Below the pieces are notes generated by a model that did not search any database, had not been told where the DNA came from, and was given only the letters and a program-made list of their open reading frames with translations. Made by a program: the position numbers and the translations under genes. Below, one piece after another: positions 1 to 12,412 of a DNA stretch of 64,000 nt. Position 1 is the first letter of the stretch. Each line of letters opens with the position of its first letter. Source of the DNA: Rhodobiaceae bacterium (GTDB lineage: Bacteria; Pseudomonadota; Alphaproteobacteria; Parvibaculales; Parvibaculaceae). Where the stretch lies: the NCBI GenBank assembly GCA_003330885.1, contig CP030277.1, forward strand, positions 3,088,001 to 3,152,000, read 5' to 3'.

Positions 1-1139
1 TCCAGCCCGGACAGGACCCGATCATGATGAGCATCGGGGAACCGCAACATGCGTTCCCGCAGTTTGTCTCTGACGTTCTGCGCGCCCATGAAAAGGACTA
101 TGGCAAATACCCACCCATCATAGGGACGACGCCCTTTCGCGATGCCGCCGCTGGATGGCTGGCCCGTCGCTATAATCTGCCGCCGGAAGTTTTGGAACCA
201 GATGCACGTATCCTGCCTGTGAACGGCACACGGGAGGCTCTGTTTAATCTGGCACTTGTTGCCTGCCCCACAGAGAAAGCAAGCAAACAACCGGCCGTCC
301 TGATGCCGAACCCTTTCTACCAGTGCTACGCCTCTGCAGCGATCGCAGCGGGCGCAGAACCACACTATATCGCCGCGACGGCTGAAAACGGGTTCCTGCC
401 GGATTTTGAAACGCTCGACAGCGACCTGCTCGCCCGCACTGCGATGATCTATTTCTGCTCGCCAGCAAACCCGCAGGGCACCGTTGCACCGCTGGATTAT
501 CTCAAGCGCCTGATCAGCCTTGCCCGCGAGCATGACATCACCCTGGTCATCGACGAATGCTATGCCGACATTTATGACCGGGATGAACCACCTGGCGGCC
601 TGCAGGCGGCTCTCGAACTTGCCGTGCCAAAGTCCGGTGATGTCTTTGAAAACATCATCGTCTTTCACTCGCTTTCCAAACGCTCGAACCTGCCAGGATT
701 GCGCACAGGCTTCTGTGCGGGCGACAAAGCACTGATCAATCGCTTCCGCGCCTTCCGCAACATCGCAGCGCCGCAAACACCCCTGCCCGTACTCGCCGCA
801 GCGACGGCCTGCTGGAACGATGATGCCCATTCAGCGGAGAACCGTGCCCGCTATCAGGTGAAAAACGACATTGCCGAGCGCATCATCGGGAACCGATATG
901 GCTTCTATCGTCCCGCCGGTGGCTTTTTCCTGTGGCTCGATGTCGGTGACGGAGTTGCTGTCACCAAACAGCTTTGGGCAGACGCTGGCTTGAAAGTATT
1001 GCCTGGCGGCTACCTCGCCCGCGACGACGCCACCCTTCCAGATGGAAACCCTGGCGCACGCTTCATCCGCCTGGCGCTTGTACAAGATGAGAAGACAGTT
1101 GAAGAAGCCCTCACCCGCCTCACCAATGTTTTGAGCTAG
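1..1139 (+). CDS. dapC: Succinyldiaminopimelate aminotransferase-like protein (5' truncated)
   Basis: This is a fold-type I PLP-dependent aminotransferase whose 5' end lies outside the window. The frame is open to base 3, and the residues before the first ATG (DPIM, then MSIGEPQH) match the N-terminal substrate-loop region of the family, so the true start is upstream. The Schiff-base lysine is expected in the [10 protein letters not shown] stretch (codon at 678-680), followed by the LRTGF motif. The expected reaction is glutamate-dependent transamination in the succinylase branch of lysine and diaminopimelate synthesis. Related aminotransferases cannot be separated with certainty by eye. ftsK starts 10 bases downstream on the same strand, so the two may be cotranscribed. 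Confidence 0.75.
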
Positions 1140-1149
1140 GGAAAAAACC

Positions 1150-3627
1150 ATGGCCCTCGTGCGATCCATTCCCAACCCGGTCAACTATCTGCCCATGGGT
1201 GTGCGGGTATTTTTCCGCCACCGCATGGCCGAAGCAACGGGGCTTGCTCTGTTGGCAATTGGGGGCTTCCTGGCTCTGGCATTCGCGAGCTGGTCCGCCG
1301 CCGATCCCAACTGGAACCAGGCAACGGGTGCGCCGCTTCAAAACTGGATGGGCGCAAGCGGCGCCGTCACCGCCGATCTCACCTATCAGCTTCTAGGGCT
1401 TGCCGGTCTTCTCCTTGTCCCCCTTGCAGCTATCTGGGGCTGGCGCTTGCTCACCCATACGCCCGTCGATCAGGTGCGCAGGCGAACATTGGTCGGACTC
1501 CTGGCACTCAGTGTAGTGGCTTTGTTGGCAAGCGTCCTGCCCACCACCGACAACTGGCCGCTCGCCGTTGGCTTTGGTGGTGTCATTGGAGACGCTCTCG
1601 CTTCGCTCACCGCAGGCAATCTGGGCATCCTTATCGGCGATGCCCCCGCGCACGCGCTCATCGGCGTCCTGGCGCTGGGCCTCGCGCTCTTCCTTCTAAG
1701 CTATGCAAGCGACATCAGCATTGATCAAGTGTCGGAACTGCGATGGCAGCTCGTCGACTCGTATTATGACTGGGCAGACGCACGGGCCGAACAGCGGGCA
1801 ATCAATGCAGATGCAGAACCAAGCCGCCTGCGCATCTTTTGGTATGCAGCAAGCGATCGCATGACCGGCCTCGTCGACCGGTTCCGGAAAGAGCCCACCT
1901 GGGACGACGACGAAGAAGAGTTCGATGACGAACCGACAGTGGCACCCCGCCGGCGTCTCGCCGTTGAACGCGAAATGCTGGACGAACCAGAGGAACCGCG
2001 CCGCCGCCAGCGCCGCGTGCCCGTCAAACGCTCATCAAAAAAGGCAAAGCCCAGCAAACGCGCAAAGGCTGAGCGCGAGCCCATGCTGGACCTACTGCCA
2101 GCAGAAGATTTCGATCTCCCGGCCCTCTCCATCCTGAATGCGGTGAAGCGCCAGGCGGCCGACGAAAGCCTCTCTGATGAAGCGCTGCAGCAAAATGCAC
2201 GACTGCTTGAAGGCGTGCTCGACGACTTTGGCATCAGGGGCGAGATCATCAATGTACGCCCCGGCCCTGTCGTCACACTCTATGAATTGGAACCGGCACC
2301 CGGGATCAAGTCATCCCGCGTGATCGCGCTTGCCGATGACATTGCCCGCTCCATGAGTGCGGTATCCGCCCGTGTCGCCGTCGTGCCCGGTCGCAACGCC
2401 ATCGGTATTGAACTGCCAAACGTGCGCCGCGAGATGGTGGGCCTGAAAGAAATTCTTTCCTCGTCTGAATATGACGCGTCCAAATCATCGCTTCCATTGG
2501 CGCTCGGCAAAAACATCGGCGGTGAACCCATCATCGCCGATCTCGCCCGCATGCCTCACCTCTTGATCGCGGGGACCACAGGCTCAGGTAAATCTGTCGG
2601 CATCAACACCATGATCCTCTCGCTCCTCTATCGGATGCGGCCTGATCAGTGCAAAATGATCATGGTCGACCCGAAAATGCTGGAACTCTCCATCTATGAC
2701 GGCATCCCGCATTTGCTGGCGCCCGTCGTGACCGATCCAAAGAAGGCAGTGGTAGCGCTGAAATGGGTCGTGAAGGAGATGGAAGACCGCTACCGCAAAA
2801 TGTCGAAAGTCGGTGTGCGGAATATTGACGGATTTAACACCCGCATCGCCGAAGCCATTGAAAACGAAGAACAGATCATCCGCACAGTCCAAACCGGCTA
2901 TGATCGCGACAGTGGCGAAGCCATCTACGAAGACGAAGAGCTGAGCCTTGAGCGCATGCCCTATATCGTCGTCATTGTTGACGAAATGGCTGACCTCATG
3001 ATGGTCGCAGGCAAAGAAATTGAAGCGGCGATCCAACGCCTCGCGCAAATGGCACGTGCCGCCGGCATTCACATGATCACTGCGACGCAGCGACCATCTG
3101 TGGACGTCATCACCGGTACCATCAAGGCAAATTTCCCGACCCGGATCTCTTTCCAGGTCACGTCCAAAATTGACAGTCGCACCATTCTGGGCGAGCAGGG
3201 TGCGGAACAATTGCTGGGGCAGGGTGACATGCTCTACATGGCAGGCGGCGGCCGCGTCTCCCGCGTGCACGGACCTTTCGTCTCCGACAGCGAAGTCGAG
3301 AAAGTTGTGAGCTTCCTGAAAAAACAGGGCACACCGGAATATCTCGATGCCGTCACAGAAGAGTCTGAGAATGACGACGTGAACGAGATCTTGGGGTTAG
3401 CGCCAGCGGGGTCTTCTGGCGATGATCTCTATGATCAGGCGGTTGCCATTGTCGGCCGCGACAAGCGCGCCTCCACGTCTTACATCCAGCGCAAACTCCA
3501 GATTGGCTACAACCGGGCAGCGCGCATTGTTGAGCAGATGGAAGAAGAGGGCGTCATCTCCAAGCCGAACCACGCAGGCAAACGCGAGGTGCTGATTGGC
3601 GATCCGGGTGAGGGTGTAAGGTATTAA
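1150..3627 (+). CDS. ftsK: DNA translocase FtsK
   Basis: This 825-residue protein is a septum-located ATP-driven DNA pump that moves chromosome termini across the division site and activates XerCD recombination at dif. The N-terminal 200 residues hold four hydrophobic segments that anchor it at the septum. A charged linker rich in Glu, Arg and Lys spans about 240-320. The RecA-like motor carries a Walker A motif GTTGSGKS near residues 475-482 and a Walker B region [12 protein letters not shown]. The last 70 residues form the winged-helix gamma domain that reads KOPS. The linker is short compared with E. coli FtsK, as usual in alphaproteobacteria. It follows the aminotransferase by 10 bases. 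Confidence 0.97.
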
Positions 3628-3710
3628 CCCCAAGTTCGGCTCAGAATCCGTTCATTTCCCAGACGTTTCAGCGCCCTTTTCATTCCTTCATTCCGCCACA
3701 AAGGTCTTCT

Positions 3711-4415
3711 ATGTTCCTCATCATGAGCGATTTTGGACGAGATAGCCGCAAGGCGGCACATGCCAGGACCCGCACCCTGGTGCTGGCAGCTATTGCAGGC
3801 GTCGCCATCCTGGCGCTGGCACTGCTGACGCCTTTGGCTGGCGCGCAGGCGGCACCACAAGGCGCGCCACTCGGCCCCCAGGACCGGGCGGATATTGACC
3901 GCATCACCGGCTATCTGAAATCCATTGAGCATTTGCAGGGCGGCTTTCTGCAGGTGGGACCGGATGGGTCCATTACAGAAGGCATGTTCTATCTTCGCCG
4001 GCCTGGCCGACTGCGGTTTGAATATGCACCGCCCACAGAGCTTGTGGTGGTGGCAGACGGCACCTGGGTGATCGTCAAGGAAGAAGACTACACGGCCCAG
4101 CGCTATCCCATTGGCGCGACACCACTCAACTTGCTGCTGGCGTCTGACGTGGACCTGTCACGATCCTCCGACGTCCGTGAAGTAAAGCGCGAACCGGGCC
4201 TGCTTCGGGTGACCCTGGCCGACCCGAGTGGCGAAGCGCCCGGTGACCTCACCCTCGTATTTGATGAGCCCCAGCTGCAGCTCCGGCAATGGATCGTGCG
4301 CGACGCGCAAGGCCTTCAAACAACCATTGCCCTTCGCAATATTGAAGGCGGCATCAAGGCCGACAACGCCCTCTTCGTCGTTCGCGACGAGCAACGCCCC
4401 GGCGGTAGACGATAG
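3711..4415 (+). CDS. lolA: LolA-like outer-membrane lipoprotein carrier
   Basis: The 234-residue product has an N-terminal hydrophobic segment (about residues 22-45, ending in GAQAAP) that reads as a signal peptide. The mature part matches LolA: a run with QGGFLQ, then FYLRRPGRLRFEY and a glycine- and tryptophan-containing VVADGTWVIV strand, the half-barrel that carries lipoproteins through the periplasm. AAAGG lies about 7 bases before the ATG at 3711, which supports this start, although an in-frame ATG at 3723 is possible. Placement after ftsK is common in alphaproteobacteria. LolA-fold proteins with other cargo cannot be excluded. Confidence 0.8.
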   Translation: MFLIMSDFGRDSRKAAHARTRTLVLAAIAGVAILALALLTPLAGAQAAPQGAPLGPQDRADIDRITGYLKSIEHLQGGFLQVGPDGSITEGMFYLRRPGRLRFEYAPPTELVVVADGTWVIVKEEDYTAQRYPIGATPLNLLLASDVDLSRSSDVREVKREPGLLRVTLADPSGEAPGDLTLVFDEPQLQLRQWIVRDAQGLQTTIALRNIEGGIKADNALFVVRDEQRPGGRR

Positions 4416-10442: not shown

Positions 10443-10487
10443 AGCGGGATCGGACAGAAAACCGCACACACTTTTCCTGATCCCGCT
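10443..10487. repeat. Dispersed palindrome, copy 1 (minus orientation)
   Basis: AGCGGGATC and GATCCCGCT form a 9-bp outer stem. The 27-base core between them, read on the minus strand, is almost identical to the core at 49872-49919 (AGGAAAAGTGTGT...GCGGTTTTC.GTCC). The outer stem differs between copies but still pairs in both. Confidence 0.75.
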
Positions 10488-10654
10488 ATAGAAATAAATC
10501 TTAAGGACTAGAGGCTTGGACAGGTTAAGACCGCGCAACAGGTCTTGCAAAATCTGGCGGTACACGGACAAATTCAGGACTAACGCCTTGAAAATAAAAG
10601 GGTTAACCGGCTATCACCCGTTTATAAACTGTTAGTGATTTTCGCCAGATTGCA

Positions 10655-10683
10655 TTGAATCAGCCCCATCAGAGTCCTATCTA
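10655..10683 (+). promoter_or_regulatory. Predicted sigma-70-type promoter of the small RNA
   Basis: TTGAAT (10655-10660) and TATCTA (10678-10683) are separated by exactly 17 bases. Transcription would begin near 10690-10692. The next recognisable structure downstream is a set of hairpins ending in an intrinsic terminator, with no open frame between. Confidence 0.5.
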
Positions 10684-10690
10684 TAGTCTC

Positions 10691-10838
10691 AGACAGGCGG
10701 AAAGCTTGAGGACCTCGTCCCCCCGAAACTCCTCGCAGTGAGTTTTCCGCCCGCCCCCGGCGCCGATCTATCCCCTCTCGGTGCCAGCGCAGAGTAAGCG
10801 CATGAACGCCCCGCCAGCCCCCTTAGGCGGGGCGTTTT
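10691..10838 (+). ncRNA. Predicted small RNA with pyrimidine-rich loops
   Basis: About 148 bases between a sigma-70-like promoter and an intrinsic terminator fold into serial hairpins. Hairpin 1 closes with GGCGGAAA (10696-10703) and TTTCCGCC (10744-10751). It encloses a C-rich stretch with CCUCGUCCCCCC and ACUCCUCGC, which resemble anti-Shine-Dalgarno sequences. Hairpin 2 pairs GGCGCCGA (10759-10766) with TCGGTGCC (10778-10785) around a UCUAUCCCCUC loop. A small GCGC hairpin follows, then the terminator. The layout suggests a trans-acting regulator that pairs with ribosome-binding sites. I cannot match it to a named family. It does not carry SRP, tmRNA or RNase P signatures, and a 6S-like long closing stem is absent. 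Confidence 0.5.
10805..10838 (+). terminator. Intrinsic terminator of the predicted small RNA
   Basis: ACGCCCCGCC (10806-10815) pairs perfectly with GGCGGGGCGT (10826-10835) and runs into TTTT. The 10-bp GC-rich stem with a T-run is a strong rho-independent terminator. It ends 75 bases before the next start codon. Confidence 0.8.
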
Positions 10839-10913
10839 CATGTCCGCCCCTCAAAGTGAGCCAACAGCGCTTAATCCCTTTAGGTGACCTTCCGGCCGCT
10901 ATATAAGGGGCCC

Positions 10914-11525
10914 ATGAGCATGGACTATTCAGGGGGCGAACCCCTTTCCGACGCAGAACTGGAAGAGCTGGCGCTTGAAATGCCAGCACTGGCCCTCCTG
11001 CGTGACTTTGGTCGCCAGGTGGCTGAGATCCCCTGGTTTACAGAACTCGGCACGCCGCTCCGTGGCGACAGCAAATCCGTGGGCCAGGCCTATCTCGACG
11101 CCCTGGGCTTCCCCGATGCGCGACCTGCCCGCATATCCAATTGGGACGATGCCATCATCGCCGCTGAAAGTGGTGACTGGAATGGCGGCGCGTGGGAGGC
11201 AGAGGAAGGTCTGCGTGCCTCCCTCTCAACAGACTTGCTCGATGTCTTGAGTGAAGAAGCCTTTGAGATTGGCTTTACCTATGCCGCGTCTGAAGCAGAG
11301 CCTGCGGTGCGCACAGCGGCAGAGACCGCCGCCAACATCTGGGGCGTGGAAGACATGGAAATCGCCATCGCCGCGGCAGGCGCTGCGATGCAGGCCGTCC
11401 ATGGGGCAGCGCTGGCAACAGCCATTGGCGCAGACGAAGATCACCCATTCTTACTGCGCCTTAAACTTTTCGAACAAGGGCGCTGGCCCATCGGCGTTGC
11501 AGGCCTTACCTTCAACATCTTCTGA
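10914..11525 (+). CDS. Conserved hypothetical protein
   Basis: Unrecognised acidic protein of about 203 residues. The start at 10914 has AAGGGG just upstream, and an ATG two codons later is equally possible. It is rich in Ala and Glu and appears largely helical. There is no signal peptide or membrane segment and no catalytic motif that I can name. A segment near the middle (WDDAIIAAESGDWNG) and the C-terminal half (AAETAANIWGVEDMEIAIAAAG) look like conserved helices. It precedes xthA by 68 bases, which may only be position. Confidence 0.65.
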   Translation: MSMDYSGGEPLSDAELEELALEMPALALLRDFGRQVAEIPWFTELGTPLRGDSKSVGQAYLDALGFPDARPARISNWDDAIIAAESGDWNGGAWEAEEGLRASLSTDLLDVLSEEAFEIGFTYAASEAEPAVRTAAETAANIWGVEDMEIAIAAAGAAMQAVHGAALATAIGADEDHPFLLRLKLFEQGRWPIGVAGLTFNIF

Positions 11526-11593: not shown

Positions 11594-12412
11594 GTGCCAA
11601 AACTAAAAACACTTAAAGTCGCCACCTGGAACATCAACTCTGTGCGCCTGCGCATTGAGAGTGTCGAGAAATTCCTGAAGGAACAGAAACCCGACGTGCT
11701 CTGCCTGCAGGAGATCAAATGCCATAACGATGTATTCCCAGAGAAGGCCTTTAAGAAGGCAGGCTACGGCCACATCGCCCTTAACGGACAAAAGGCCTAT
11801 CACGGCGTCGCAACCGTGAGCCGTGTGCCACTTACCAATATCGAAGCGCGCGAATTCTGCAACAAAGGCGACGCGCGCCACGTTGCAGCGACCGTGCCGG
11901 ACGCCGGCGATGTGCGCATCCACAATTTCTATGTGCCCGCAGGCGGCGATGAGCCGGACGTGGATAAGAATGAAAAGTTTGCCCACAAGCTCGACTTCCT
12001 CAATGAGATGGAAGCCTGGTACAAAAACCACAAGAATAAGAAGACATCGAAAATGGTACTCGTGGGTGACCTCAACATCGCACCGTTCGAACATGATGTC
12101 TGGTCCCACAAACAGCTTCTAAAAGTCGTGAGTCACACGCCGATCGAGGTGGAACATCTTGAGCGGGTGCAGAAGTCCCATTCCTGGATCGACGTCATGC
12201 GCGAATTTGTTCCCCATGATGAGAAACTCTATTCCTGGTGGAGCTACCGCGCGAAAGACTGGAAGGCCGCGAACAAAGGCCGCCGCTTGGATCATATCTG
12301 GGTGACACCGGCCATGGAGGGCGCCGCCAAATCAATGGAAGTGGTGACAGATGCGCGCGGTTGGGAAAAACCCTCTGACCATGCCCCGGTCATCGCCACC
12401 TTCAAAGTCTGA
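11594..12412 (+). CDS. xthA: Exodeoxyribonuclease III
   Basis: A 272-residue AP endonuclease/3'-5' exonuclease of base-excision repair with a GTG start. The EEP-fold motifs are present in order: NINSVR near the N-terminus, LQEIKC with the metal-binding Glu near residue 37, GDLNIAP in the middle and the terminal SDHAPVIATF with the catalytic His. Length and motifs match XthA closely. The gene is followed 33 bases later by a hotdog-fold gene on the same strand. Confidence 0.95.
   Translation: MPKLKTLKVATWNINSVRLRIESVEKFLKEQKPDVLCLQEIKCHNDVFPEKAFKKAGYGHIALNGQKAYHGVATVSRVPLTNIEAREFCNKGDARHVAATVPDAGDVRIHNFYVPAGGDEPDVDKNEKFAHKLDFLNEMEAWYKNHKNKKTSKMVLVGDLNIAPFEHDVWSHKQLLKVVSHTPIEVEHLERVQKSHSWIDVMREFVPHDEKLYSWWSYRAKDWKAANKGRRLDHIWVTPAMEGAAKSMEVVTDARGWEKPSDHAPVIATFKV

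Follow-up and report, generated by a model that had tools for sequence, protein, structure and literature searches.

A predicted small RNA gene in the lolA-xthA region of a Rhodobiaceae bacterium, most likely a counterpart of Caulobacter RusT

The window, i.e. the whole 64,000-nucleotide stretch of Rhodobiaceae DNA that was analyzed, carries an ftsK gene (1135-3624; Pfam FtsK) just before lolA (3612..4412, + strand; Pfam LolA). Downstream of lolA, and standing between it and the element described here, are puuD, aminotransferase, and glyoxalase-like genes. They are followed by a predicted small RNA (sRNA) of ~148 nt (10691..10838, + strand), by hyp213 (10914..11525, + strand), which encodes a conserved hypothetical protein, and by the exodeoxyribonuclease III gene xthA (11594..12412, + strand; TIGR00195, 201 bits, above the cut-off). 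Both hyp213 and xthA are syntenic neighbours of the sRNA, and lolA is its ancestral upstream neighbour, an adjacency seen in other families. The hyp213 product does not match any Pfam or NCBIfam family, and its gene stays next to xthA across many families of the class. Two further features lie upstream of the sRNA. At 10443-10490, an inverted repeat, AGCGGGATC...GATCCCGCT, forms a terminator-like hairpin 3' of the glyoxalase-like gene. A block at 10505-10590 (GGTTAAGACCGCGCAAC..TCTTGCAAAA), ~100-150 bp 5' of the sRNA promoter, is strongly conserved in two congeners (G001 and G002) and partly in a third (G005); it is possibly a regulatory element or a second transcript.

The putative promoter (10655..10683, + strand) can be read directly in the window as a -35 box TTGAAT (10655-10660), a 17-nt spacer (10661-10677), and a -10 box TATCTA (10678-10683), the very sequence given by the preliminary description, whose coordinates for the whole element are correct. 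It was missed by a generic sigma-70 scan of the window; nonetheless, a TTGAAN-N17-TATCTA-like promoter with the 17-nt spacing is kept at an unchanged distance in nearly all family homologues, those of four family genera included. The RNA would start at position 10691, ~7 nt past the -10 box. Folding of 10691-10845 yields a minimum free energy of -73.7, compared with -49.2 +/- 4.1 for dinucleotide shuffles (z = -6.0), and returns the serial hairpins with unpaired C-rich stretches that had been proposed, which are also conserved in relatives. Hairpin 1 (hp1, 10696..10751, + strand) has a C-rich apical loop with CCCCCC at 10719-10724, at the place of the class-wide loop core UUGCCCCCCCGCU, and its stem displays compensatory changes. 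Hairpin 2 (hp2, 10759..10785, + strand), in which five of the six core pairs exhibit compensatory changes class-wide, exposes the loop UCUAUCCCCUC (10767-10777), with an invariant CCCCU, as the presumed main seed. A further, small hairpin, hp3 (10787..10801, + strand), which brings the total to four, folds as GCGC-AGAGUAA-GCGC, and in an alignment of 28 sequences 88% of its cells are paired. Lastly, the intrinsic terminator (10804..10838/10839, + strand) is strong, and its stem comprises 12 bp and not the 10 previously stated; it bears the C-rich loop AGCCCCCUUA and a short U tail, and eight of its 12 pairs are compensatory in the 28 sequences. The loops read directly in the window sRNA are thus CCCCCC, UAUCCCCUCU, and CCCCCUUA. 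No conserved coding frame covers the element, and the overlapping ORFs are purely mechanical, as the description of a gap devoid of coding frame implied.

Within the genus, six congeners carry the element; identity is 76-93% and covers the promoter wherever the match extends that far. Stem changes among them are compensatory in hp1 and hp2 and at the base of the terminator, and all seven genus sequences have an identical TATCCCCTCT loop. A covariance model built from these seven sequences (R1), used without any positional information, matches 39 of 40 family genomes, a set that includes Parvibaculum-labelled records, at E<=10, and in ~30 of these the E-value drops under 1e-3, the E-values of all the covariance models being rough because of a shortened calibration. 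The 23 loci fetched from other family genera all adjoin the aminotransferase gene, hyp213, or xthA, in the order aminotransferase - sRNA - hyp213 - xthA wherever the contig is long enough. Models R1-R3 recover one unit, of 146-158 nt among family homologues, in which the promoter, the four hairpins, and the three C-rich loops all recur. The pair counts, here and below, come from MAFFT alignments whose rows were picked by covariance models, a procedure that favours structure: among 28 sequences, 14 of the 24 pairs of hp2, hp3, and the terminator are changed on both sides, a number equalled in none of 500 shuffles, and the signal collapses when the partner is slid by one column. RNAalifold reports double changes for 8 of the 17 hp1 pairs in the Parvibaculum-like sequences, and folding predicts unpaired C-runs in loops 1 and 2 of nearly all members. 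A leaderless peptide starting from an ATG at the 5'-end of the Parvibaculum-like homologues was considered and dismissed, as the frame is missing in the window genus and soon stopped in some members. In one congener (G003, L004:1367-1525), a 46-bp unit containing half of the terminator (GGCGGGGCGTTTTCATGTCC) is repeated 3.5 times just 3' of the sRNA terminator, and partial copies resembling this unit also lie 3' of the sRNA in G001 and G002.

Beyond the family, a wider covariance model (R2) matches 60 of the 289 class genomes searched at E<=1. All 27 fetched R2 loci lie next to one or more of the genes ftsK, lolA, puuD, aminotransferase, hyp213, and xthA; three are training sequences and the other 24 are new, each of these 24 being syntenic. 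As controls, 17 weak R1 matches and 28 matches of the model of the Rfam family alpha-r7 (RF02342) were inspected, and not one adjoins those genes. This synteny result is free of the row-selection bias mentioned above. Among eleven weaker R2 loci, four adjoin puuD and xthA and two more adjoin puuD, and at one of the eleven lolA is distant and on the opposite strand. A scan of 398 phylum genomes with R3 returned syntenic loci for 18 of 24 matches inside the class and for none of five outside. A pattern match in a Paeniglutamicibacter-titled record (L110) is devoid of synteny and was discarded as a chance hit. In the class-wide alignment A6 (23 sequences), 15 of the 17 pairs of hp2 and the terminator are changed on both sides, with 0/500 shuffles as good and loss of the signal in slid controls, and most rows carry UUGCCCCCCCGCU in hp1 and AUCCCCUCCCGG in hp2. 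Substitutions in relatives, which the preliminary description had envisaged as breaking both hairpins if the prediction were wrong, are compensatory instead, and its proposal of a small RNA whose loops are C/U-rich and anti-Shine-Dalgarno-like is supported by comparative evidence. Covariation and synteny place the feature far beyond chance. GC-rich sequence folds readily, and one could imagine fortuitous hairpins or a repeat element without RNA function; however, the compensatory changes, the conserved promoter, and the class-wide synteny make such an origin scarcely conceivable. Judged from sequence comparison, this is a true gene for a small regulatory RNA, which many alphaproteobacterial lineages have retained at one chromosomal site, between lolA and xthA. 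The ancestral order would be ftsK - lolA - sRNA - (hyp213) - xthA, with puuD and the aminotransferase gene inserted in some lineages, including that of the window.

Since the element usually stands 5' of hyp213 or xthA, with its terminator preceding the gene, it might alternatively act in cis on hyp213-xthA, as a 5' leader or an attenuator. However, a TATATAAG box (10900-10907, within the feature 10900..10916, + strand) lies close 5' of the hyp213 ATG (10914), and TATAAG or TATAAA is found 6-8 nt 5' of this ATG in seven genus genomes and in several Parvibaculum-like genomes. This box is likely a separate, leaderless promoter of hyp213 in the genus; separate transcription of hyp213 being probable, the leader reading becomes unlikely. 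Moreover, the gap between terminator and gene varies widely, hyp213 is undetected beside the sRNA in some lineages, and the RNA described next was shown to act in trans (PMC11005374). Taken together, a leader function is very improbable.

A literature search reports one sRNA at the lolA-xth locus, RusT (CCNA_R0199) of Caulobacter crescentus, a 118-nt RNA encoded between lolA (CCNA_03820) and xth (CCNA_03821) (PMC11005374). Its structure, which has been probed, comprises four stem-loops, the last one being the terminator, and Hfq, which RusT needs for repression, contacts stem-loop 3 (PMC11005374). Iron chelation or an excess of zinc induces RusT, and NtrX represses it (PMC11005374). TonB-dependent receptors and other transporters make up most of its targets, the mRNAs of outer-membrane transporters being repressed, and its seed lies in the conserved stem-loop 2 loop, for which compensatory mutations supported direct pairing with two targets (PMC11005374). 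The preliminary description left the family unnamed; synteny and architecture now point to RusT (PMC11005374). The class-wide matches adjoin lolA and/or xthA, as the RusT gene does. The window RNA and its homologues fold into four stem-loops, with the terminator last and a small stem-loop 3, and the hp2 loop, placed as in RusT stem-loop 2, is among their most conserved parts, as compared by description. In contrast, the window RNA is longer (~148 versus 118 nt), and the window order is ftsK-lolA-...-sRNA-hyp213-xthA, with inserted genes and with hyp213 between the sRNA and xthA. The short U tail of the window terminator, UUUUC, is atypical of Hfq-bound sRNAs and counts against a RusT-like reading. 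On locus, number and order of stem-loops, and the conserved hp2 loop, the window RNA is most likely the counterpart of RusT, and hp3 would then be the positional equivalent of the Hfq-binding stem-loop 3, a role carried over from RusT alone. An unrelated C-rich-loop trans sRNA could also occupy this site, if the lolA-xth interval independently hosted different sRNAs in each lineage. The likeness to RusT is one of locus and architecture, the homologues reported by its authors are from close Caulobacteraceae (PMC11005374), and some class matches share mainly the terminator and hp2, with weak scores. However, gene slot, stem-loop number, and presumed seed position are the same as in RusT, and from family to family this slot holds a graded series of intermediates, so that we regard independent origins as unlikely. 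Rather than being peculiar to the Caulobacteraceae, RusT probably belongs, as one branch, to an ancient sRNA family that spans the alphaproteobacterial class at the ftsK-lolA-xthA locus and has no Rfam entry; its members would bear up to three C-rich anti-Shine-Dalgarno-like loops, those of hp1 and hp2 being nearly unchanged across many families. It appears that one member, RusT, has already been characterised and that the breadth of the family is undescribed.

With the RusT counterpart as the preferred reading, the stretch 10655-10839 is very likely an independent, trans-acting base-pairing sRNA of a Parvibaculum-related lineage. Three exposed C-rich loops, nearly invariant while the stems vary, typically mark RNAs whose pairing partners are G-rich translation starts, and such pairing of C-rich loops with G-rich start regions has been shown for sX13 (PMC3771888), NfeR1 (PMC10746234), and RusT loop 2 (PMC11005374). 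The RNA would be transcribed from the TTGAAT-N17-TATCTA promoter and would act mainly through the invariant hp2 loop, (U)AUCCCCUCU/C, assisted by the C-rich loops of hp1 and the terminator. Pairing with G-rich Shine-Dalgarno or nearby sequences would block translation of target mRNAs, which by analogy with RusT may encode outer-membrane transporters; Hfq would probably bind at hp3, and the RNA would probably respond to iron or envelope stress. Loop 2 was searched for complementary G-rich start sites across the genus, and no conserved target emerged. The petB start region of one congener (G001, L194) contains a 13-nt perfect complement of the hp2 loop, in that congener only, and petB was rejected because its orthologues in the other genus genomes carry mismatches. 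Similarly, a small lipoprotein gene with GAGGGGATA before its ATG is common to three congeners and was not seen in the others, and it is not claimed as a target. An unnamed cluster of hairpins can now be treated as an sRNA gene whose candidate relative has a name and whose proposed mechanism lends itself to testing. The findings also suggest that a single RNA regulator, of the cell envelope or of the iron response, has stayed beside lolA and xthA across the full depth of the Alphaproteobacteria, its loops nearly invariant, and the models, together with the synteny rule, would allow the family to be annotated and the RusT/NtrYX link to be examined in other lineages.

Other known sRNAs with C-rich loops resemble the window RNA to various extents. 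The sX13 RNA of Xanthomonas (RF02232) also possesses three stems with C-rich apical loops that pair with G-rich motifs near translation starts, but it is gammaproteobacterial, polA-linked, and Hfq-independent (PMC3771888), and its model scores 15.3 bits on the window, under the 50-bit cut-off. The alpha-r14 RNA, or NfeR1 (RF02344), shares three hairpins with anti-Shine-Dalgarno motifs; however, all its loops carry an identical CCUCCUCCC motif (PMC10746234), whereas the window sRNA loops differ from each other. These three motifs are not in the window sRNA, nor did the Rfam scan report a match with this family. Likewise, the Caulobacter GsrN is a C-rich loop sRNA, but it has a Sigma-T (EcfG) promoter and lies near the general-stress locus in most relatives (PMC5869019); a promoter of this type was rejected here, as there is no GGAAC-CGTT (sigma-EcfG) at the window sRNA. 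The Rfam scan that the preliminary description called for reports no family reaching threshold, either for the element in the window or in the scanned homologous loci. The best match, along the full length, is alpha-r7, with 21.8 bits against a cut-off of 60. This RNA (SmrC7, sra03; PMC2780559, PMC2245857) shares with the window sRNA three large hairpins, a length of ~148-150 nt, C-rich loops, and a strictly conserved central loop, but belongs to the polA locus and has no detected sequence relation to it. The window sRNA might then be an alpha-r7 member moved from polA, and the alpha-r7 model does find its best match at the sRNA locus in the window's own genome and in some congeners. However, in Parvibaculum-like genomes its best matches are elsewhere, none of 28 alpha-r7-model matches lies at the sRNA locus, and the family profile HMMs score the alpha-r7 consensus no higher than shuffles. 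The genome's own polA is ~240 kb away, with no alpha-r7 or R1 match near it. Membership in alpha-r7 was therefore rejected, on a score under the cut-off, an unshared locus, and negative HMMs, the resemblance being architectural, and a relocated alpha-r7 is highly improbable. In two Parvibaculum-like genomes, the best alpha-r7 matches (L114:3082-3215, - strand, and L117:3036-3132, + strand) are pairs of C-rich hairpins with a terminator located just past a gene end, and these are candidates for another sRNA.
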